Below are positions 4,618-32,967 of a DNA stretch of 33,030 bases, in pieces (the first letter of the stretch is position 1; each line of letters starts with the position of its first letter). The DNA is taken from positions 1 to 33,030 of the IMG/VR virus record IMGVR_UViG_3300034198_001645, one strand, 5' to 3'. Under the pieces are notes generated by a model that worked only from the letters and a program-made list of their open reading frames with translations, did no database searches and was not told where the DNA came from. This DNA comes from a virus. The translations under genes and the position numbers were made by a program.

Positions 4618-4637
4618 CCACGGTTACTTTCCCGTGG
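4618..4637 (-). promoter_or_regulatory. AAGTAACCGTG element, copy 4, inside a small hairpin
   Basis: The element (CACGGTTACTT on the + strand, 4619-4629) overlaps the stop of the 3448-residue gene and lies 50 nt before the tailspike ATG. Here it also forms a perfect 6-bp inverted repeat, CCACGG/CCGTGG with an 8-nt loop. No T tract follows, so this is not an ordinary intrinsic terminator. Its function is unknown; see the matching elements at 17327, 23489 and 28383. Confidence 0.5.
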
Positions 4638-7600
4638 ACTCCTTGCTCGCAACGCCGGTCACCAAACCCCGGCCAAGATCATAGGTGCTTGTAGGTTGAA
4701 CAGCGCCTCGGTTCACATCTACGGCGTAACCTATTGGTCTGCCAAGTACTGTGAGAGGGATGCCGGTAACTAGGCTGATAAATGTCAAAGAATCTCTGAC
4801 GTTCTTGCCTGTCAATTGCTTGTCATCACTGGCAATGTTGATGCCGGTCTTGATGAATCCGCCTGCACTTTCCAATGCTGTGATCGATGGGCTGACGCTG
4901 ATCTTGTCATCGTACTGAGCAGTGGTTAAAGCGCCATATGTTGCTGTCGCTAACTGGCCAGCAAATGGCACCATGCCTGTGACCATCTTGCCCTGCGATC
5001 CAAAAAACCACGCCATGAATTCGTCAAGATAACCATCGTCATCGTCATCATCCCAGCCAGTTCCTAGGCTGCGCATAATTGCATCACCGATCATTGCAGG
5101 CAAAGCAATGCCCAGCAGGTAGGTATACAGCAGCTTGCCCTTGTTACCGCGCCAGCCAAGGTCACGCATAAGCTTGGTGAATGCAGACACATTCAGGTTG
5201 GCCATCATATTCATGTAGCCACCGAAATGAGTTAGGGTCTTGGTGAACGGTGTGCCAACTTCAAAGGCAGCCAAGTCTTCTGCGGACAGGCTAGACTGCG
5301 TCAAACGGACTGCAGCATCAGCTCGCTGCACTGCTTCCTTCCTGGCCTTCTCGTCACTTACATCAGCGCCCAGCTCTGCCAGTGTCTGATTGTATGTTGC
5401 CGTCCATGTCACCACGTCCACCTGATTCTGGAACGCAGTTTGCAGGAAGTACCCATGTTGCTGGGTCCACTTCTTCAGCTTATCGAACTTGCTCGGATTG
5501 AGCAGGATGTCATTCATGTTTTCTTGAATGTCGAATATCTGGTTTTGCAGTCTGTCCTGCATGAATGTAGATAGCTCAGCCACCTCATCCGTTACCGTTT
5601 GGGTGTTGGAGATATACGATGCCAAGGCACTCTTCAGGTAACGTGGCTGCACCTTCAGGGCTGATGGGAAATAACCAGTCAGCTGCTGCAATGCATTGCG
5701 CAGATTGCCAAACATGATGGCAATACCAGTCCGTTGTCTAATTCCACGCCACACTTCGTCCATAAACTTAGACTTGCCCACTTCAGACGTAATCTGCCGG
5801 GCCGCACGGTTTAGCCATGGGATCAGCATGTCTTCGATCGCGCTTGGGTCTACTCTGCTGAGGTTGTCAGCAAAGCCTCGGTTGCGCAGGATTTTTAGAG
5901 CATCCTTAATCGCTGGCTGAACAAGCGCAAACCGGATCACACTATCAATGTGATTGGTCATCTGGCGAACGTCTAGGCTTAGCGGTCTATTGTATTCAAC
6001 ACGGCCCTTGGTAAAGCCCAAGCCAGTAGATGGCATTGCATTACGGAAGTCTGACTCCAGCGCTTCCATCTTTGATTGACGCTGAGCATCGCGGACAATA
6101 AACGGATCGGTCTTAGCAGGAACGTATCCGCCACGGTAAGAGCCAAACTGATTAGAGAATGGCGTGTTAGGCACTTCCTTGAAATAATAGCCAAACATGT
6201 CGTGGTGGGCCTTTTGAGCCATAGGCTTGATCTCTTCGTTCAGGTCCCAAACCTGCTGCGCGAAATCAAAGTCTTCCTTGGTCAGGTATCCTTCCTTAAT
6301 CATTCGAGCTAGAAACATATCCCAGCGGCCAGTGTTTAAGCTGCCGTCTTCACGGATTACGCCCCAGCCTCGGCCTACTAGCAACTTCTTGTAATTGGAC
6401 TCGTTGCCAATGTGCAGGATGGCACCCAGCAGCTCAGCCTTGCCGATGCCGCCATTGCCATGGCCAAAGCTGTATCCCAGCTCAGGCGCTTCGATAATGC
6501 CTACAGGCAGGTCTAGCCCTTGGATCATCTCTGCATAGCGTCTAACGTAATCGTTGCGCGAAATACGGTAGGCGTTTAAAGCATCCTTGATTGGCCGCCA
6601 GATGTACTTAGTAAATGGCCCAGGACCTGCGACCCCGTCCACAGAATCGGCCCAATGCTCCACCCTGCGTAGGATGGCCTTGGTGTTATTGAACGCCCGG
6701 ACAATTCGATCTTTGGTGGTCGGTGCCTTTAGCTCGCCGGCTACCGTGGCAGGTATACCCACTTCAACCAGTCGGTTGTTCAGCTCGGTGATGACATTGG
6801 CCAGCTCAACCTTTTGGCCCTCAACCATGATCTGTTTGTCACGCTTGGCGTTAAACCACAAAGCGTCTACCGCATCCTTCATGGCACGGAACTCTTCCAT
6901 GGTCAGTTGCTTATAATCCGTGGCACCCGCAGCTGCCTTGAAGATCAATGGCTCAAGCTCGGCGTACAGGTCTGGATTATAGGCTCGTAGCTGCTCGACA
7001 AAATCCAATGGAGACTTGCCCTGCGGTCCAATGCCAAACGCGCTCAGAATCGCTCTGGCTGCGTTTACAAGGTCCATGTCACGGTTCTTGGCAATCTTCT
7101 GATCAGCCTTGAAGAATCGCTTGAAGCTGGTCAGCGCTGTGGCCACTTCGTTGCGGGCATCAACTGCCTCGGCAGCTAATTGACCTTGCAGCAACTGTCC
7201 TTGCTTTTCGCGGGCAGCATCTTTCGATTCGCCTTTCTTCATGTGGGCAAGTGCCTTCTTGGCGGCACGGGCTTCAGCCAGGGAATAATCCCGTGGCTTA
7301 ATGTCCTTGATCTTCTTGCCTGCAATAATCTGCTGCGCGGCCTGCTTAGCAGCCTGCAGCATTACGCGCACGGGTTGGGTAGCCTTGGCTAGGTATCGCA
7401 GCTCTGCAGCCACAAACCGCGCACGGGCCTCAGTGTGCAGCGCCTGCTCAATATTGCGGGCCTGTACTTCTGGGTCCATCAGCTCGGAATGCTCGTTCAG
7501 CATCCGCTCATCGGTGCGGTCATTGATCGCATCTTTGATTGGCTTAGCTTCAGCGATAGCACGGATCATGTCATCGCCGGAGGTAAAGCCAAATATCTCA

Positions 7601-10600
7601 GCGACCATGTCAGGCGGCAGGCCATCATCGGACAGCATGCCACGCAGCTTGGCCATGTCAGGTCCGGCCACTAACGCGCCTTCTGGATACAGCGCTTTGA
7701 CCATGCCCTTGTTTAGCTTATTGCCGGCCTGAACTTCGATCGGGTTACCGTTCTCGTCCTCAAGCTTGCCTGTACGCAGGAAGCGCATAGCACGGTAAAC
7801 AGGCCGGTCTTCTACTTCTTTGGTTGCTTCAGCCTGCACACCTTTGCGTATGTCCTTTACGGTGTCCTGCATCTTCTTGAGCAGTTTGCTTCGCGCATTT
7901 GACAGCCATTTCATTTGACGCAATGTGGACCTGCTCAGGTCACTGACTGCTTCATCGTGCGCAGTGGTCTGCAGTGATTGATACTCAGCCCATTGTTCGT
8001 CATTCATGCCTGACTCTTCTTGAGTCTGGAAGATAGCCTTCATGTTTCGCACATCTTCGGCCTGTGCAATCTGGTCATCGCTGGCCATCAGTCTGTCCAT
8101 CACTTGACGCACTTCGCCAGTAAGAACAGGCAGGTCTTCGCCATGCTCTTGTCGGTAGATTGCATTCAGATCAGTTACGATTGACTTGTATACCTGACGC
8201 AGCCAAGCGCTAAATTTGTCAAATATACTTTGCAATTTCAGGCTTGGTGCTTTGCCTTCGTACAAATAGATTTCATGGTTGTAGGCCCACATCTCATGGT
8301 ATTTACGCTGATCTTCTAGACTCATGGAGTTCCATGTTTCTAGATTAGTCACGCCGAACCAATCAAGTACGGTCTGTGCATCTTGCTTCATCTGCTCAGT
8401 AGCATTTGGCAATCCAGCCAGCTTGAACATTGCCTCAAGATAAAAGTGTCCTGTCTCATGCAGGAACGTAGACATGTCAGTCTTATCGGTGAGAATCGTA
8501 GTCAGAGTTGACGGATCGAATCCACCACGAACGCCTGCAGTTTGCTGGAACAGTGGCTGCGGTTTTTTCAGCTCTGTACGCATCTCAGGCGTGATATCAA
8601 CAACCATCTGCTGCTGATCTGCGCTTGGTTTTCTGTTATGCAATGGCAGGCCAATATCTGACAAATAAGGCTTCCCACCAAGCTTGCTAACAATTTTGCT
8701 AACCACTTGCGGCAGGATTCCATTGTAATAACCAATCATTCCTTCGCCACCAACTTCAAGTTGATCGCCTTCAAGCATATGAAGCCCGCCAAAAGTAGGC
8801 TCTGCCATTAATAGCTTCTTAGCGGTTTCGATTCCAACGATGCCCTCAAGATCACCCTCTGCGACATCTTTTTTATACAGCACTTCCATACGGGCAGAGT
8901 TCCAAGCGCGCAACAATTGACGTTTTGGGTCGTAAGATAGATATTCAATTTGCTGTCTAAGATTGAAACGTTCTGCAGCTTGCTTGCCATTAATAAACGT
9001 AACTTTCTTATAACCATGATCAGCCGCATAACGCATGATGCGTTTTACCGCTAATGATGACCACGCTTTGGTGTCGGTCACAAATGGAGCAGATGGCTTA
9101 ACTTCTCTATCTCGTAAAAGCCACTGTCTATCTAGCTCATTAATTTGCTGGTGTACGCTTTGCAGTTCATTGTGTATTTCAGTCAACAATGTGACATCAG
9201 CTACCAGCTCAGGATTTTGCACAGCTTCATCATACTTTTTAGTAAGCTCGCCTTTTTTTAACCTAAGCTTTGCATATTGAGGGGTAAGGTGTTTTTTTGG
9301 GCCAAACCCTGCTTTACGACCTTCTTGTCCCCAATCGCTTTGAATTTCCTCAACAAATAATGATCCATCTGGACCTGTGCCTAATCTGACATGGGCCAAC
9401 ACGTTCCGCTGATCCCAATGGCTGCTTTCAAAACTAAGTTGTGAATCGGTGCCATATGCTTTGTATTGCGGTGACATGCGAGCTGCAATTTGACTGTCAA
9501 ATACAACAGGCTCATCGCTAATTGGATCAAGTACTGGCGCACCATTTTCGTGTACCAATAAATATGTTCCTTTGCGATTAGGATTCTCTATTACTTCAGG
9601 CTTAATGATAGGTAAACGTAATAGTAATTCTTTGTAGTCTTTTAGACCAAAAGAATATTTATCATATTTACTTGCTTCAATATCTTCAAGGTCATGGCGA
9701 ATGTCTCGCGGTACGTCTAAATCTTCAAGCTCCACCAACTCGCCTTCGCGATCAGTAAATGTCCAGTCACCATATTTGTATTCAGCCTCATAGCCATAAG
9801 GCTCAAGGATGTCATTGGCTGCCTGCACGAAATCGCCGTATAACATGGTCTCTTCAATGCGAACGCCAGTGCTGTTAAGGTAATCGGCAATCTCTTGTTT
9901 GGAAACGCTTGCCCGATCTTCTAGGAATTCAGCTAAATCGGTAGCTTCAATTTCATCAGCTTTGGCTGATTTTCTAAGTATGTTTAGCCAATCGTTGCCT
10001 GGTGCTTTATCTACCTTGGCCGTTTGCACGGACTCAAGCAGCACGGATTTCCAAATAGGTGCAGTTTGGAATAACACGCCACCCTTACCTAGCTTGGCCA
10101 GAGCAGCGTTTTGGTACGCTAATGCATCGCCATAATTTTCTGCAACTGGACCATCGGTTTTTTCATATCCGCCGTAATATTTAGGATCGTAGACCATGAA
10201 CACAACATCCGGCTCACCGTTGTTGAATTTTGCGAATGCCTGCTTATCCCATCCTTGTGGCGCTTCTTTGTCATCCCATTTAAGACGGGATACAGCAACA
10301 AAACCATGGGCCGCATACATCTTTGGCAGGATAGTGTCAAAGGCATCTAACTTGGTGCCGCCTGCAGCGATAGCTATTTCAAGCATTGAACGGCCTGATC
10401 CATTGTTAGAGAACAATGAAACGATGTCACCGTCCTGCTTAACGGCAATACCAGATTTTCCGTCAGCGGAAACAAACAGGCGCATTTTTTGGTAGTCTTC
10501 TGCGGAATATACATATACCGCAGCGCCCATTTTTTTAGCGCTTTGTTTTGATTGGGTAATTAATTCTACAAATTTTTGAGCAGATTGCTCAGTAGGTTCT

Positions 10601-13600
10601 AATTCAAATACTTCAGGAACATTGATTCCATTCCTGCGTAATGCGTTTGCTAATTTATTTCCGGGCTTCCATTCCCGGATAATTGTTACACCAAGTGACT
10701 TTTTCTTTTTGGCTGTTAAAAGCCCGCTTGTTGCATCATTTCCATAATCTCTTCCTTGGTAAGACCAGGATAGTTTTTGAGCGCCCACTCGATTGGATCG
10801 AGAGCGCTGGGTTGCAACGGCTCCACGGAAGAGCTTCTTTTCTTGCTGAGTAAAACCTCGATCTTCTTCGTACTGTCTTTGGATTGCCTGATCGGCTTCC
10901 TCTGCTGCAGCTTCAAGTCCTGCATCTCTTGTGCGTCCACGATCTTTCTCCTGCTGTAAAGCATTATTAATAGCAGCGACACTAACCCGCTTTGAGCGAG
11001 CTACTGCAGCTGCGGCGTTTGCATAATCTGGTGCCTCTTCATCAGCATAACCTTCGGTTTCTGCCAATTCAGAGGGGTCTTCTTTGGCGGTTTCATACAG
11101 GCGTTTTTCTGCATACCACAAAACTGCTTGGAGGTCCGCCATCTGTAGATTGGCATAATCAGGCATTTGACGCAACTGATCCAGCATGCCGGTGAATATT
11201 TGTCGGATGTAATTACGTTCGCCAGGACCTGATGGCGCTTCTTTCTGGCCATCCAAATACTTGGCCAATGAATTGCCTGACTTGCGGAACTCCTCGCCAA
11301 TTTCAGTTGCATTCATTCTTTCGCGCAAAGCAGGGTCCATACTGGCTTTCTGAACAATCTCAGACAGAGCGTTCAGGTCCATGTCGGCGGTAATCGGTGT
11401 GCCTACGATCTCGCCAATTCTGGCAGCTTCTGTTTCGTCTGCGGCGATCTTTTCAACAACTGACTTAAGGCGCGCAGTAGCTGCTTCTGTCTGCTGAGGT
11501 TGCGTTTTGATCAGGGTGCCTGTCCATCGGCCCCAAGTACGGATCAACCAGCGATCCATCGTTAGTGCATCAAAATGTCCATACAGATTAGAAAAGAAAC
11601 CGTTACCGATCTTTGGGCCAAGGATTGCGGCACCACGGACATAAGTATCCGCATGCTCTCCGCCTGGAGTTAGATCAGAATTCAGCGCAGTGATTTCACC
11701 TACCGTGAAATTAGTCATCATAAACTTGCGCAGGTTATCCATTCCCCATGCAGCGCTTAAATCATTAAATAACTGCAGCCCTTCATTAATTGCTTTTTGA
11801 GCTTGGCCACCTTTGATATTGGTTGGCATCTTGCCTTTCTTTTTCCATTGGGCATAAGCCTTTTCTGCAAGCTCGAAATTCTTATCTACTTTCAATCCAT
11901 TGGATGTCACCGCCAATGCCCATGTAAACGCAAACCGAGCGGTTTCGTCTGTGGCAATCTCAGGATGCACCAATGCCATAATGGCAAGCGCTTGACGGGT
12001 TTTGAGGTCATACCAGCCAATTGCATTTGGGTTTTGCTGCAATGCCATCAAGGCATCTTTAACGCCTGTGCGTATTAAGTACTCAGTTGTCTGAGGCCCA
12101 GGAATGCTTACATCTACGCCGGCAGCATCAGCCGCCTGCTTTACAGAATTCTGCATGGCCATCTTCAAATCGCGGCCACGATTCCAAGTTGTAGATTTAG
12201 CAAGCTTTAATGTGCTATCTAAAACTGCAGCATCATCTACGCTTGTAGGTACAGCGGATTGATCAACAGGAGCAGCATCGTCTTCGCCCGGCGCTGTATC
12301 TGTCTGAGCTGAATCAATCTCGCCAATTGTTTCTTGTGCAGTCTGATATAAATAATTTGCCTTTTCCCCATACGTTACATTTTTTGCCAACACTAATGGC
12401 CCGATCTGGATAACCTCATCAGCGGCCACTACGGGCTGCATGGTTTCGCGGTCATAAAAATAAGCGTGACGCTCAGGGTCCATACCCACTTGCCGCCATG
12501 CTGGATCGCTCAATGCAGCATCCGCTTCTGCCTTTGCTTGTTCTGGTGTGACTTTGCGCCAGTTGCCCTTGATGACAGCAATGGTGCCTTTGCTTGTTTT
12601 GCCTGTAGCAATATTGAGCGCGCCTTTACCAGGCATGCCAAAGGTAGCATTGGTCACTGCAGCAACATTGTCATATCCGACAACGGTACCGGCTTGGAAA
12701 GATGATGGAGATGTGCCTGGTTTTTGTTCGTGTACGCTAACGATCCAAGTGTTATGTCTTAGATACGCAGGAATGTCTAAGCGCAAACCAACTGGCGCGC
12801 CTTCCTGTAATTCTCTAGGTGCAAATAGCTTGCTTTGCTGGTCTTCTTTTAGCGCAGTGCGCATTGCATCATCGGTTTCAGGCATAGGCACCGATTGATA
12901 AGGCAGCACGGGCTTGTACTTATTTACAATAGCCTCATGCTCTTCTCTGGTGATTTCGCCACGCTCTAACTGCTGAGTTGCCTCAGTGAGCTGCTGCACA
13001 CGCTCGCCAACATTCTTACGGATGTATTCTTCTTGGCTTAATGTTTGCGCCTGCTCGAACGAACCGGTCGTTACGTTGTAAGGTAGCAACTTGTACAAGT
13101 CCATTGGCTTCATGTTCAAAGCCTTGGCTTGCGTCACATAGAAAGCTTGCACAGACTTCGCGTATGCGCGTGAAGCTTCTGGCAGGTATTGGCCAGTGGC
13201 CTTAATCTGGTCGTGCAATGTCGTTTCAACTTCTGCAGCTGAATCGACAAACTCCTTTTCAGTCTGAGCATCTGCAAGAATCTGGGCAGACTCAGTGGAC
13301 ATCTGCCCTTGCTGTTTAATCATCTCTTGGCGCTTAGCCTCAACGTCACGGGCCTCGGCTGCACTAGGCAGCTCAGGATTGACGCGAGCATGCTCGACAA
13401 TAGGACGCATCGCCTCATCTGAAGCAACGGCCATAGCAAACTGTGATGCAGGCACAACGATATCGCCGCCAGTTTGCAACGCTGTCTGTAGGTCCTGATC
13501 AGACACTAAAGTCTGCAGCTGTGACTGATTTAGGAGTTGGCTGGCTACTGTGGCATCGATGTGAATGTCTCCAGCTCCAATGTCATCCATTAAGTCCTTT

Positions 13601-14970
13601 ACGTCTTCTGCATTGCGCTTATGAGATTTTGTTGCTTGAACAGCATCAATCACTTCATTCAAATTTTGCTCGCCATATACAGCGCGTTGATTTTCGTTCA
13701 TGCTGCGAACATGCTGATCATGCAATGTTTTCATTACTGAAGTCTGCATGACCGTTGCCAAGGTAGTTTGCACAAAAGTATCTAACGCTGCGCTTGGACG
13801 CTCAGACAAATAATCGCCAAATGTTTTGTCTTTGTTTTCAGGCAGCATGCCCCATGACAATAAATCTTGAGCATGAGTAGCCACTTGCTCACTTAGATTT
13901 TCGCTAACCAACTGATTGCGTAATATTTTCCATAACGGCGCATCCATTTTAACGTCTTTGACCAATAGGCCAAACGGCATCATTTCTGTAATGCCTTCTA
14001 TTACGCCTTGTCCGCCAGCATATCCAAGAGTAGCCCACGGCCCCATGCCCTGCTCATAAGCAGCAGATGCTTCTTGTCCGGCAACATTTAACGCCATTGG
14101 AGTAACGGCAAGAGCATTAGCTTTTGTAAAGTTTGCAGTCAACTTTCCAAGCATTGTTTCTGCAGCCGGAATAGATTCCGCAGCAACCGCCTTTTCAAAT
14201 GCAAATGGCAAACCAAGCGACAGAACTTGCGCAACGCTAGAGCCTGCACCAAATAGCATTTGCCTGCCGTAACTTGCGCCTTCACCCGCACCAGCAAATT
14301 CTTGCGCTCCAGTTGCAACTTGACCTGCGGTTTTCGCAAATCTCAATTGTTCTTCTGCAGTCCTAGAAAGAAAATTATTTTCTCCAAGGATCGGTGACAG
14401 CAATTCTGCTTGCGCACGATTCATCGCGCCTGACAACCCGGTATAGCCCTGCAAAACACTAGCGCCAGCATGACCAATAACGCCAAGCGCGCCTCTAAGA
14501 GTTCCTAATAAATCATATTGATAATTTGTTCCTGGTATAGGAATCTCTGCATGCATATTCTTTAATTTAGTTGTAGATGACTCTACGTTTCCTAAATGCG
14601 GAATATCATCAATTGTTCGTGCAGCAAAGTCTTTAGTTAAAAATCGATTTGCTAATGCTGGACTATTATCCAACACCGAAGTTGAATCTAATAAAGATAC
14701 ACGGCGCTTAGCATCTTGAGTATCCAGCGCATTAGGTGACCATTGCTCATTGGCCTTTGCATTTAATTGATCTGCCAAGCGTTTACGTTCAGCGGCATCA
14801 TCTGCATTGCCGAATGATGCGTTATATGCATTAGCTTGCGCTATAGAATTATCTTTTGGCTGACGAACTTGCTGCAATAATGATGAATACTCATCTGTCA
14901 CTACAGGTTGCTTAGGCGCAGGGGATTGGCCTGATCGAACTTGTGCAAGCAGATCATCAAATTCACTCAT
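4624..14970 (-). CDS. giant internal virion protein, polyvalent, with zincin motif
   Basis: At 3448 residues this is far longer than T7 gp16 (about 1,318), whose place in the gene order it takes. It probably rides inside the capsid and is ejected into the host. Visible parts: hydrophobic Gly/Ala-rich helices at about 150-340; a charged region about 450-600; a conserved block about 700-870 (IQIGPLVLAKN); a helical block about 950-1180; a possible acyltransferase-like block about 1535-1600 (LPKMYAAHGF); a polyvalent-protein block with EEIQSDW at 1874-1880; a metallopeptidase motif HETGH at 2171-2175, with Glu2233 (HEIYLYEGKAPS) as likely third zinc ligand; long coiled-coil-like helices to about 2900; and a membrane-like C-terminal region (about 3285-3320) ending near a PLTVLGRPIGY motif typical of PLxRFG-type phage proteins. 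AAGG lies 9 nt before the ATG, which overlaps the preceding stop (TAATG). Confidence 0.85.
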   Translation of the reverse strand: MSEFDDLLAQVRSGQSPAPKQPVVTDEYSSLLQQVRQPKDNSIAQANAYNASFGNADDAAERKRLADQLNAKANEQWSPNALDTQDAKRRVSLLDSTSVLDNSPALANRFLTKDFAARTIDDIPHLGNVESSTTKLKNMHAEIPIPGTNYQYDLLGTLRGALGVIGHAGASVLQGYTGLSGAMNRAQAELLSPILGENNFLSRTAEEQLRFAKTAGQVATGAQEFAGAGEGASYGRQMLFGAGSSVAQVLSLGLPFAFEKAVAAESIPAAETMLGKLTANFTKANALAVTPMALNVAGQEASAAYEQGMGPWATLGYAGGQGVIEGITEMMPFGLLVKDVKMDAPLWKILRNQLVSENLSEQVATHAQDLLSWGMLPENKDKTFGDYLSERPSAALDTFVQTTLATVMQTSVMKTLHDQHVRSMNENQRAVYGEQNLNEVIDAVQATKSHKRNAEDVKDLMDDIGAGDIHIDATVASQLLNQSQLQTLVSDQDLQTALQTGGDIVVPASQFAMAVASDEAMRPIVEHARVNPELPSAAEARDVEAKRQEMIKQQGQMSTESAQILADAQTEKEFVDSAAEVETTLHDQIKATGQYLPEASRAYAKSVQAFYVTQAKALNMKPMDLYKLLPYNVTTGSFEQAQTLSQEEYIRKNVGERVQQLTEATQQLERGEITREEHEAIVNKYKPVLPYQSVPMPETDDAMRTALKEDQQSKLFAPRELQEGAPVGLRLDIPAYLRHNTWIVSVHEQKPGTSPSSFQAGTVVGYDNVAAVTNATFGMPGKGALNIATGKTSKGTIAVIKGNWRKVTPEQAKAEADAALSDPAWRQVGMDPERHAYFYDRETMQPVVAADEVIQIGPLVLAKNVTYGEKANYLYQTAQETIGEIDSAQTDTAPGEDDAAPVDQSAVPTSVDDAAVLDSTLKLAKSTTWNRGRDLKMAMQNSVKQAADAAGVDVSIPGPQTTEYLIRTGVKDALMALQQNPNAIGWYDLKTRQALAIMALVHPEIATDETARFAFTWALAVTSNGLKVDKNFELAEKAYAQWKKKGKMPTNIKGGQAQKAINEGLQLFNDLSAAWGMDNLRKFMMTNFTVGEITALNSDLTPGGEHADTYVRGAAILGPKIGNGFFSNLYGHFDALTMDRWLIRTWGRWTGTLIKTQPQQTEAATARLKSVVEKIAADETEAARIGEIVGTPITADMDLNALSEIVQKASMDPALRERMNATEIGEEFRKSGNSLAKYLDGQKEAPSGPGERNYIRQIFTGMLDQLRQMPDYANLQMADLQAVLWYAEKRLYETAKEDPSELAETEGYADEEAPDYANAAAAVARSKRVSVAAINNALQQEKDRGRTRDAGLEAAAEEADQAIQRQYEEDRGFTQQEKKLFRGAVATQRSRSNRVGAQKLSWSYQGRDYGNDATSGLLTAKKKKSLGVTIIREWKPGNKLANALRRNGINVPEVFELEPTEQSAQKFVELITQSKQSAKKMGAAVYVYSAEDYQKMRLFVSADGKSGIAVKQDGDIVSLFSNNGSGRSMLEIAIAAGGTKLDAFDTILPKMYAAHGFVAVSRLKWDDKEAPQGWDKQAFAKFNNGEPDVVFMVYDPKYYGGYEKTDGPVAENYGDALAYQNAALAKLGKGGVLFQTAPIWKSVLLESVQTAKVDKAPGNDWLNILRKSAKADEIEATDLAEFLEDRASVSKQEIADYLNSTGVRIEETMLYGDFVQAANDILEPYGYEAEYKYGDWTFTDREGELVELEDLDVPRDIRHDLEDIEASKYDKYSFGLKDYKELLLRLPIIKPEVIENPNRKGTYLLVHENGAPVLDPISDEPVVFDSQIAARMSPQYKAYGTDSQLSFESSHWDQRNVLAHVRLGTGPDGSLFVEEIQSDWGQEGRKAGFGPKKHLTPQYAKLRLKKGELTKKYDEAVQNPELVADVTLLTEIHNELQSVHQQINELDRQWLLRDREVKPSAPFVTDTKAWSSLAVKRIMRYAADHGYKKVTFINGKQAAERFNLRQQIEYLSYDPKRQLLRAWNSARMEVLYKKDVAEGDLEGIVGIETAKKLLMAEPTFGGLHMLEGDQLEVGGEGMIGYYNGILPQVVSKIVSKLGGKPYLSDIGLPLHNRKPSADQQQMVVDITPEMRTELKKPQPLFQQTAGVRGGFDPSTLTTILTDKTDMSTFLHETGHFYLEAMFKLAGLPNATEQMKQDAQTVLDWFGVTNLETWNSMSLEDQRKYHEMWAYNHEIYLYEGKAPSLKLQSIFDKFSAWLRQVYKSIVTDLNAIYRQEHGEDLPVLTGEVRQVMDRLMASDDQIAQAEDVRNMKAIFQTQEESGMNDEQWAEYQSLQTTAHDEAVSDLSRSTLRQMKWLSNARSKLLKKMQDTVKDIRKGVQAEATKEVEDRPVYRAMRFLRTGKLEDENGNPIEVQAGNKLNKGMVKALYPEGALVAGPDMAKLRGMLSDDGLPPDMVAEIFGFTSGDDMIRAIAEAKPIKDAINDRTDERMLNEHSELMDPEVQARNIEQALHTEARARFVAAELRYLAKATQPVRVMLQAAKQAAQQIIAGKKIKDIKPRDYSLAEARAAKKALAHMKKGESKDAAREKQGQLLQGQLAAEAVDARNEVATALTSFKRFFKADQKIAKNRDMDLVNAARAILSAFGIGPQGKSPLDFVEQLRAYNPDLYAELEPLIFKAAAGATDYKQLTMEEFRAMKDAVDALWFNAKRDKQIMVEGQKVELANVITELNNRLVEVGIPATVAGELKAPTTKDRIVRAFNNTKAILRRVEHWADSVDGVAGPGPFTKYIWRPIKDALNAYRISRNDYVRRYAEMIQGLDLPVGIIEAPELGYSFGHGNGGIGKAELLGAILHIGNESNYKKLLVGRGWGVIREDGSLNTGRWDMFLARMIKEGYLTKEDFDFAQQVWDLNEEIKPMAQKAHHDMFGYYFKEVPNTPFSNQFGSYRGGYVPAKTDPFIVRDAQRQSKMEALESDFRNAMPSTGLGFTKGRVEYNRPLSLDVRQMTNHIDSVIRFALVQPAIKDALKILRNRGFADNLSRVDPSAIEDMLIPWLNRAARQITSEVGKSKFMDEVWRGIRQRTGIAIMFGNLRNALQQLTGYFPSALKVQPRYLKSALASYISNTQTVTDEVAELSTFMQDRLQNQIFDIQENMNDILLNPSKFDKLKKWTQQHGYFLQTAFQNQVDVVTWTATYNQTLAELGADVSDEKARKEAVQRADAAVRLTQSSLSAEDLAAFEVGTPFTKTLTHFGGYMNMMANLNVSAFTKLMRDLGWRGNKGKLLYTYLLGIALPAMIGDAIMRSLGTGWDDDDDDGYLDEFMAWFFGSQGKMVTGMVPFAGQLATATYGALTTAQYDDKISVSPSITALESAGGFIKTGINIASDDKQLTGKNVRDSLTFISLVTGIPLTVLGRPIGYAVDVNRGAVQPTSTYDLGRGLVTGVASKESTGK

Positions 14971-31399: not shown

Positions 31400-31909
31400 C
31401 TAATTTTCTTGAATGATGTCTTGGATGTTAAACCGGTACTCAGGCTGATCACCATCTGCTGGTATGACCATGGTCCTGTAAACTGGCTCCCACTCTCGGT
31501 ACGCTACGCCTTGCTTGTCGTTGCCCGGATTCCATCGCACTTCCCATTTCCAAGGGCCTTTCATTTGCAGCGGGGTAAGCTGCAGCAAGCCCAGTGTGTG
31601 CTGTCGCAGGATGTATTCGGTCATTCGGGCAATCACCGATAGCCGCTCGATACCGTCTGCAGGCTTGGCCTTCTTGAGCAGGGCCTCAAACTCTGGGAAT
31701 GTTGGCGCGTACTTTGGATGATGGACCTTAACGGCATCAAGTGCGTTCTTGATCTGCTCATCCGTTGCCGTGTTGACAGCCCAGTCCCATGCTTGGCTTG
31801 GCATCGCCCCGTGACTCTCGATGACCCGTGTGCCGTACCATTGGATAAACCGTTCCCATACGCGCTTGCTTCTGCGTGATGGTTCATAAGTTGCCTGAAT
31901 ATCGCTCAT
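31400..31909 (-). CDS. helicase-loader-like replication protein (lambda P position)
   Basis: The 169-residue protein has a segment WDWAVNTATDEQIKNALDAV followed by PTFPEFEALLKKA (about 41-81). It fits the W-x-x-x-L-x-x-(L)-x-x-E-Q-I-x-x-G/A-L ... FPP-x-x-x-E-F pattern of phage replication protein P and related loaders, which bring host DnaB to the origin. No Walker motif is present, as in lambda P. It directly follows the initiator-like gene with an ATGA overlap (GGAGG about 10 nt upstream), the O-P order. The C-terminal half (WKWEVRWNPG, REWEPVYRTMVI) is not recognised. Assignment is tentative. Confidence 0.5.
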   Translation of the reverse strand: MSDIQATYEPSRRSKRVWERFIQWYGTRVIESHGAMPSQAWDWAVNTATDEQIKNALDAVKVHHPKYAPTFPEFEALLKKAKPADGIERLSVIARMTEYILRQHTLGLLQLTPLQMKGPWKWEVRWNPGNDKQGVAYREWEPVYRTMVIPADGDQPEYRFNIQDIIQEN

Positions 31910-32625
31910 GATCGTAATGCCTCCAGTGTAGATTCAAGTTTAGATTTATTCGCTTTCGCCTGCGGTGTTCTCAGGACCTTGTCGAGGTAAGCCGCCGGTA
32001 TCGGTTCCGGGTAGGGCTTACGCATCCTGGTCAGGGCCACTGCATCTTCCGCCTGCTGGATCGTTATACCATCGGTCAGCCACTGCAGCAATAGCGGATG
32101 CTGGCTTGTAACCACGACTCCCAAATCCCTTAACTTAATCGCCATCGCGCCTTCCTTGGTTGGCTCTTGATGATTGATATTGGTATTGGTATTGGTATTG
32201 GTTAATGGTATTGGTAGCTCAACGTTCGCTGAGCGTTCGTTAAGCGTTCGTTCAACGTTCGCTGAGCGTTCGTTCAACGTTCGTTGAGCGTTCGTTGAGC
32301 GTTCGCTCGATCTGACACGCACTGAAGCCGCTGCAGATGCCTTCGCCTTGGCCTGCTTTTCTGCCATCTTGGCCAGCTCTTCATCGCATCGTTTGTGGTG
32401 CCATTGGCCATCCTGCAATGTAAAGAACTCCTGTAATACTGATTCGATCTGCGCCGATCTGTCACGCATCCTGATCGATCTTGCCAATGCAGCAATGTCA
32501 CCTTCCAATGGCTTTTCCTGCATGTAATACAGGTCAATCAGCCGGCGGTAAGCAAGGTCTTCGATCTCATCGAGGTGGTGAGTGGCCGAGTAAAAGTCAC
32601 CGATGTGGAATTGGTAAAATTTCAT
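31906..32625 (-). CDS. DUF1376-type replication initiator-like protein
   Basis: The 239-residue protein opens MKFYQFHIGDFYSATHHLDE and DLAYRRLIDLYYMQEKPL, the signature of DUF1376 (YdaU-type), a winged-helix-like domain at about 1-85 found in phage replication regions. A charged linker follows, then a repetitive stretch (107-136: RTLNERSANVE units) and a (TN)n segment (142-151), both produced by DNA repeats. The C-terminal part (about 160-225) ends PEPIPAAYLDKVLR, a pattern common to phage replication-initiator C-termini. I infer a lambda O-like role: bind the repeats inside its own gene and recruit the loader encoded next. GGGG lies about 8 nt before the ATG, which overlaps the upstream stop. 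Confidence 0.8.
   Translation of the reverse strand: MKFYQFHIGDFYSATHHLDEIEDLAYRRLIDLYYMQEKPLEGDIAALARSIRMRDRSAQIESVLQEFFTLQDGQWHHKRCDEELAKMAEKQAKAKASAAASVRVRSSERSTNAQRTLNERSANVERTLNERSANVELPIPLTNTNTNTNINHQEPTKEGAMAIKLRDLGVVVTSQHPLLLQWLTDGITIQQAEDAVALTRMRKPYPEPIPAAYLDKVLRTPQAKANKSKLESTLEALRS
32179..32215 (-). repeat. ACCAAT hexamer array beside the 11-mers
   Basis: Four exact tandem ACCAAT units (gene strand; 32179-32202) and a further unit at 32210-32215, two-thirds A+T, encode Thr-Asn repeats. Lying 5 nt beyond the 11-bp array, they are a candidate unwinding region, as the AT-rich segment beside the lambda iterons. Slippage could also explain them. Confidence 0.85.
32220..32307 (-). repeat. 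eight tandem 11-bp iterons, candidate replication origin
   Basis: On the gene strand the units follow A(A/G)CGAACG(C/T)T(C/G/T), consensus AACGAACGCTC, from 32307 down to 32220 without a gap. Every unit keeps the core CGAACG. The 11-bp period is not a multiple of three, so the encoded peptide repeats only every 33 nt; the conservation is therefore best explained at DNA level. About one helical turn per unit puts all sites on one face. Confidence 0.9.
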
Positions 32626-32931: not shown

Positions 32932-32967
32932 GAATAGATTGGCGAATAGATTGGCGAATAGATTCGC
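32932..32967. repeat. three tandem 12-bp operator-like repeats
   Basis: GAATAGATTGGC twice, then GAATAGATTCGC, in tandem upstream of the early promoter. The last unit with its preceding two bases makes a perfect palindrome, GCGAAT-AG-ATTCGC (32954-32967); the first two are the same site with one half changed. This pattern fits an activator or repressor with graded sites. Confidence 0.8.

Follow-up and report, generated by a model that had tools for sequence, protein, structure and literature searches.

A probable replication origin within a DUF1376 initiator-like gene of a phage, and the pairing of its iterons with an adjacent encoded helix

The DUF1376 gene and its two repeat arrays

The window analysed here, a linear virus record, is 33,030 bases long. 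Its long recognisable genes lie on the minus strand, and Pfam and PHROG identify among its genes a phage terminase, a head-tail connector and others. A single ORF of 3448 codons (4624-14970) takes up about one third of the contig. Near the right end lies an initiator-like gene whose product scores 92.6 bits against PF07120 (curated cut-off 30.1) and thus belongs to the DUF1376 family. PF07120 is its sole Pfam match, and its PHROG matches include 'primosomal protein' families. The features of the locus are:

31906..32625, minus strand: initiator-like gene, 239 aa, DUF1376 (PF07120; ORF and Pfam, E 2e-26)
32371..32619, minus strand: DUF1376 domain (PF07120 positions 2-86), predicted by AF2 to be winged-helix-like, with four helices and a beta hairpin at aa 69-76
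32308..32373, minus strand: putative recognition tail, aa 85-106 (AKMAEKQAKAKASAAASVRVRS), a helix right after the domain (covariation with iteron type, AF2)
32220..32307, minus strand: module 1, eight 11-bp iterons with an ARCGAACGYT core on the coding strand (TRF, lag identity, synonymous-codon test)
about 32173..32217, minus strand: module 2, a 6-bp array that reads (ACCAAT)n on the coding strand and is translated as TNTNTNTN, a putative unwinding element (TRF, 32173-32216)

The initial annotation had described eight gap-free 11-bp units at exactly 32220-32307 with an invariant CGAACG core, a description that direct reading bears out, and had correctly placed them within codons 107-136 of the 239-aa DUF1376 protein. 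On the plus strand the units run in the order CAACGTTCGCT GAGCGTTCGTT AAGCGTTCGTT CAACGTTCGCT GAGCGTTCGTT CAACGTTCGTT GAGCGTTCGTT GAGCGTTCGCT. The array is far above chance: TRF scores it at 117 (period 11) and 139 (period 33), and over 77 bp its lag-11 identity reaches 0.82. In 100 dinucleotide shuffles of the whole window this identity never exceeds 0.52, and outside the array no lag from 5 to 40 gives more than 0.53. All eight exact ARCGAACGYT matches in the window fall inside the array, and the three matches with one mismatch outside it are at chance level. Among the matches listed, viral contigs also contain many CGAACG arrays whose units are spaced 10 or 12 bp apart, and because these spacing controls are plentiful too the abundance of the motif was dropped as evidence. 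Matches with 12-bp spacing often resemble ordinary in-frame coding repeats and those with 10-bp spacing often lie within other initiator-like genes, again among the matches listed. At five further loci (L097, L122, L021, L036 and L059) CGAACG arrays occur in short ORFs or in none; these may be free-standing intergenic origins of the kind proposed here.

Immediately downstream of the iterons in the direction of the gene lies module 2 (ATTGGT/ACCAAT), which was absent from the initial annotation. Its A+T content is 68% in the window and averages 63% in 59 relatives, in which A is frequent and T scarce on its coding strand (AT skew 0.73 versus 0.00 in the domain). Periodicity of 6-7 bp rises above threshold in 59 of 85 linkers, in 0 of 86 domains and in 2 of 72 C-terminal regions, and the 6-7-bp module begins downstream of the iterons in all 17 genes in which both are clear. 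Judged from the sequence, the 11-bp array is one half of a two-module element of which the 6-7-bp A-rich array is the other half. Mid-gene CGAACG arrays with a 10- or 11-bp period were also seen in L142, L125 and L147 (DUF6291 or DUF6291-like) and in L034 (PF09681), followed there by 6-bp dipeptide-coding repeats, e.g. DNDNDN or EIEIEK. The plan of two modules may extend beyond DUF1376.

In annotated relatives, CII or Cro/CI-type regulators commonly stand ahead of the DUF1376 gene, and DnaC, DnaB, IstB-like or primase-helicase genes come after it. A helicase or loader neighbour is annotated in six fetched phage and plasmid relatives, the neighbour in Rac is an ATP-binding protein, and none is recognisable in the window. 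Searches with the product of the gene that follows (31400-31909) found no recognisable relatives and recognised neither a helicase nor a loader; a homologue of lambda P was considered for this product, and the searches gave it no support. Only about 0.4 kb of the contig lies upstream of the start of the DUF1376 gene, so the regulator side falls outside it, and, since this 33-kb linear fragment stops about 0.7 kb from the 11-bp array, cumulative GC skew is uninformative for an origin. Near the same contig end, at 32932-32964, a 12-bp unit (GAATAGATTGGC) is repeated perfectly in tandem for 2.8 copies upstream of a promoter-like site on the minus strand (32907-32879); this repeat may be an operator of the early operon.

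Selection on the DNA of the linker

That the repeat period is out of frame with the codons had been taken in the initial annotation as a sign of selection on the DNA. The period alone is insufficient for this argument: three units make 33 bp, or 11 codons, and an 11-residue peptide repeat (TLNERSANVER) is present, so peptide selection cannot be excluded on that ground. Selection on the DNA is backed instead by a synonymous-codon test, in which synonymous codons are permuted inside the gene while the protein is kept constant. The lag-11 score of the window (0.82) exceeds that of its synonymous shuffles (mean 0.53, maximum 0.75, p = 0.003), and all 14 strong arrays (score 0.70 or higher), namely the window and 13 others, beat their shuffles, the 13 with p 0.003-0.007.

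For comparison we assembled a non-redundant set of 86 DUF1376 genes, drawn from phages, a plasmid, viral contigs and GTDB genomes and gathered by protein similarity, independently of DNA repeats. A search pattern from a four-sequence domain alignment served to find relatives; a single-protein search of IMG/VR with the window protein found no relatives. Over the 86 genes, mean lag autocorrelation in the linker peaks at 11, 22 and 33 bp (0.350, 0.337 and 0.329) but not outside it (0.27-0.29 in the domain, 0.27-0.28 in the C-terminal region), and further peaks confined to the linker stand at 6, 7, 12, 14 and 21 bp. Codon choice in the linker is strongly skewed relative to codon usage elsewhere in the genes: RST is written as CGTTCAACG in 16 of 26 cases (0.7% expected), RT as CGAACG in 12 of 30 (2.8% expected), NQEP as AACCAAGAACCA in 29 of 29 (3.8% expected) and TNNQ as ACCAATAACCAA in 18 of 24 (4.4% expected). 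The cores GTTCAAC and GCGAACGC are found in all three reading frames. Since both linker periodicities survive the synonymous-codon controls, selection acts on DNA, and we show that the iterons and the second module are conserved as DNA.

Iteron type and the adjacent helix

The DUF1376 domain had been proposed as the reader of the iterons. This was not borne out, as the iteron sequence tracks the helix C-terminal to the domain. In the AF2 model, pLDDT is 96-98 over aa 11-110, a single long helix spans aa 78-130, and pLDDT drops to 45-59 over aa 121-170. A PDB fold search with the model returned weak matches, several of them winged-helix proteins and none significant, and a PDB sequence search returned no significant match. 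In the protein alignment, the basic segment of about 19 residues that follows the domain (about aa 86-104 in the window protein) sorts into types. The similarity of iteron DNA correlates with that of the 19-aa tail at r 0.63 and with that of the domain at 0.33; the partial correlations are 0.57 for the tail given the domain (p 0.001) and 0.12 for the domain given the tail. Pairs with 60-90% identical domains but tails less than 30% identical have iteron similarity at background (0.167). Along the protein, the correlation is 0.05-0.15 at aa 61-84 and climbs to 0.54 at aa 91-102.

A table of tail type by iteron type, built from loci fetched by iteron pattern with patterns and motifs picked after viewing the data, gives a similar picture among the matches listed. 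GKxSAxxR tails occur in 65 of 68 DUF1376 genes with GTTCAACGNNCGTTCAAC (GTTCAAC) iterons and in 0 of 38 with GCGAACGCA iterons, whereas tails ending in RW occur in 32 of these 38 and in 0 of the 68; there are no cross-overs (Fisher p 1e-25 and 2e-21). The SxxxSVxxR tail, which is the window type, accompanies GAACGCTCAAC units in 5 of 5 cases listed. Outside profile-detected DUF1376 the same pairing is found among the matches listed (18/29 vs 0/15 and 10/15 vs 0/29). Of the profile-negative loci checked by Pfam, L524, L593, L016 and L080 are PF14297 (Lin1244_N) and L079 is DUF1376. PF14297 proteins also surface in the fold search with the window model, so the DUF1376 and PF14297 scaffolds are probably distant relatives rather than unrelated.

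The iteron type is matched to the neighbouring helix, as this covariation shows, and, because it follows the adjacent helix in two protein families, it points to self-recognition of the iterons by the tail helix. We grade self-recognition as likely and no higher, because the motifs were chosen post hoc and the helix is close to the iterons; with tail and iterons encoded within about 100 bp, linkage or joint recombination may account for part of the covariation. The apparent helix-iteron code looks new, and a search of the open-access literature found no paper describing it. The iterons of the window had first been thought an isolated new type and prove to be one of several types in a widespread family. 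A separate family, 'PNDPKWRTIARVSKQ' (L126, L127, L129, L135, L136 and others), has CGAACG units 10 bp apart inside the DNA of the N-terminal domain (peptide SNATERGRTQ), and in several of its loci the pattern matches again some 200-230 bp further downstream.

A lambda-like layout and its alternatives

We consider it very probable, from the arrangement and conservation of the sequence, that the array is a phage replication origin inside its own initiator gene, with a layout like that of lambda ori. As in lambda-type in-gene origins, tandem repeats resembling initiator sites lie inside the initiator gene and are conserved at the DNA level, and an A/T-rich region with a putative unwinding role adjoins them. 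The initial suggestion of an O-like initiator with an in-gene origin thus stands as regards DNA-level selection, the initiator-like gene and the layout; it falls as regards the domain as reader and the isolated new type. Lambda O with ori-lambda and the O genes of Stx phages likewise have their iterons midway along the initiator gene. In lambda an A-rich tract (ACACAAAAGACACTATTACAAAAGAAAAAAGAAAAG) comes right after the iterons on the coding strand of O, and the initiator sits beside cII-type and helicase-loader genes, neither of which was recognised in the window itself. The lambda origin lies inside the initiator gene and unwinding occurs in the A-rich tract (PMC7466680). Unlike the four separated 18-bp iterons of lambda, those of the window are eight contiguous 11-bp units, the downstream tract of DUF1376 genes is a regular 6-7-bp array, and the window protein matches PF07120 only, which places it outside the O family. 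Given the different iteron architecture and the lack of Pfam kinship, the element would work like lambda ori without O-family membership.

The array could instead be an operator through which the protein regulates its own gene or the operon that follows, the origin lying elsewhere, a reading that we find improbable. Two close relatives of the window type carry the same 11-bp units once more, in an array immediately before the initiator start codon (L411:1950-1985 and L419:963-1000), as autoregulation predicts, and autoregulation is possible in these two; we also count these copies in favour of the origin reading. Such upstream copies are not general, however: 22 of 86 genes share at least two 8-mers with their upstream DNA, a number that re-paired controls also reach (maximum 22), and in the window a search with ARCGAACGYT and 8-mers found no iteron copies upstream of the DUF1376 gene. 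The conserved position of the array in mid-gene also counts against an operator, although origin and operator roles often coexist in iteron replicons, and the periodic 6-7-bp A-rich module behind the iterons would be superfluous for one. It is very unlikely that the sites are bound by some other phage or host protein (a partition protein, an architectural protein, a repressor) and not by the initiator; phased 11-bp sites would suit many DNA-binding proteins, but the iteron type follows the adjacent encoded helix in two protein families. Least credible is a disordered low-complexity linker whose DNA repeats are functionless products of a peptide repeat or neutral slippage, for although the peptide repeats every 11 residues, AF2 confidence is low over aa 121-170 and the unit number differs among relatives, this is contradicted by the synonymous-codon tests and opposed by peaks at 7, 11, 14 and 22 bp (no multiples of 3), by repeat cores shared by all three frames, by units outside the gene in L411 and L419 and by the tail-iteron pairing.

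If the array is an origin, the DUF1376 protein would assemble on the eight 11-bp iterons, which would face one side of the DNA because they repeat about once per helical turn. Base recognition would fall mainly to the basic helix right after the domain, and the assembled complex would strain and open the adjoining A-rich 6-bp array and help to load the replicative helicase there. We infer iteron binding via the helix, opening of the array and helicase loading from the parallel with lambda O and from the order of the genes; the structure of lambda O bound to its iterons is itself still unsolved (PMC10797057).

The E. coli Rac gene ydaU resembles the window gene in its DUF1376 domain and similar tail (SAAGKASVQARR), in its 11-bp GTTCAA-type units followed by a GATAAA/GATACA array, and in having the ATP-binding ydaV next in order, and differs in that its iterons are of another type and its units fewer and more degenerate. 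An active origin, oriJ, is reported for the Rac prophage as a whole (PMC3945230), and we count this, with the repeats of ydaU, in favour of the origin reading. Genes of Lin1244_N (PF14297), Phage_rep_org_N (PF09681) and DUF6291 (PF19808) likewise have mid-gene CGAACG or GTTCAAC arrays followed by 6-bp dipeptide-coding repeats, with other N-terminal domains; PF14297 members combine tails and iterons in the pairings seen in DUF1376 genes, whereas the PF09681 and DUF6291 examples have other tails and the DUF6291 example a period of 10 bp. In iteron plasmids the iterons lie, as a rule, outside the initiator coding region. Those plasmids (RK2, F) and DnaA-trio origins share with the window double-stranded initiator sites adjoining a repeat-containing unwinding element (PMC10797057), and differ in that their initiators are Rep or DnaA.

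The literature searched, outside which most subscription journals fall, yielded no paper placing an origin in a DUF1376 gene and no report of binding, unwinding or replication for any DUF1376 protein. Lactococcal and staphylococcal phage origins are the subject of published work. The principle of an in-gene origin is already known from lambda; here it is met in initiator families for which none was found described. More broadly, we hold as evenly balanced the proposal that a portable origin cassette, some 200 bp long, is present in many phage initiators, with a helix-iteron code shared by the PF07120 and PF14297 scaffolds, so that both the origin and its specificity would be predictable from sequence. 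The parts of the proposed cassette would be a short recognition helix, the iterons read by this helix and an A-rich 6-7-bp array putatively opened by the complex; because helix and iterons are encoded side by side, changes in the two would have to evolve together. The 6-7-bp module is a candidate for a general phage unwinding element. Hundreds of copies of DUF1376, a domain of unknown function, occur in phages (at least 595 confirmed stretches). If the proposal is true, initiator specificity would be testable by the exchange of about 20 residues together with the matching repeats, and if the origin reading is right, sequence alone could point to the origins in many uncharacterised phages and prophages.
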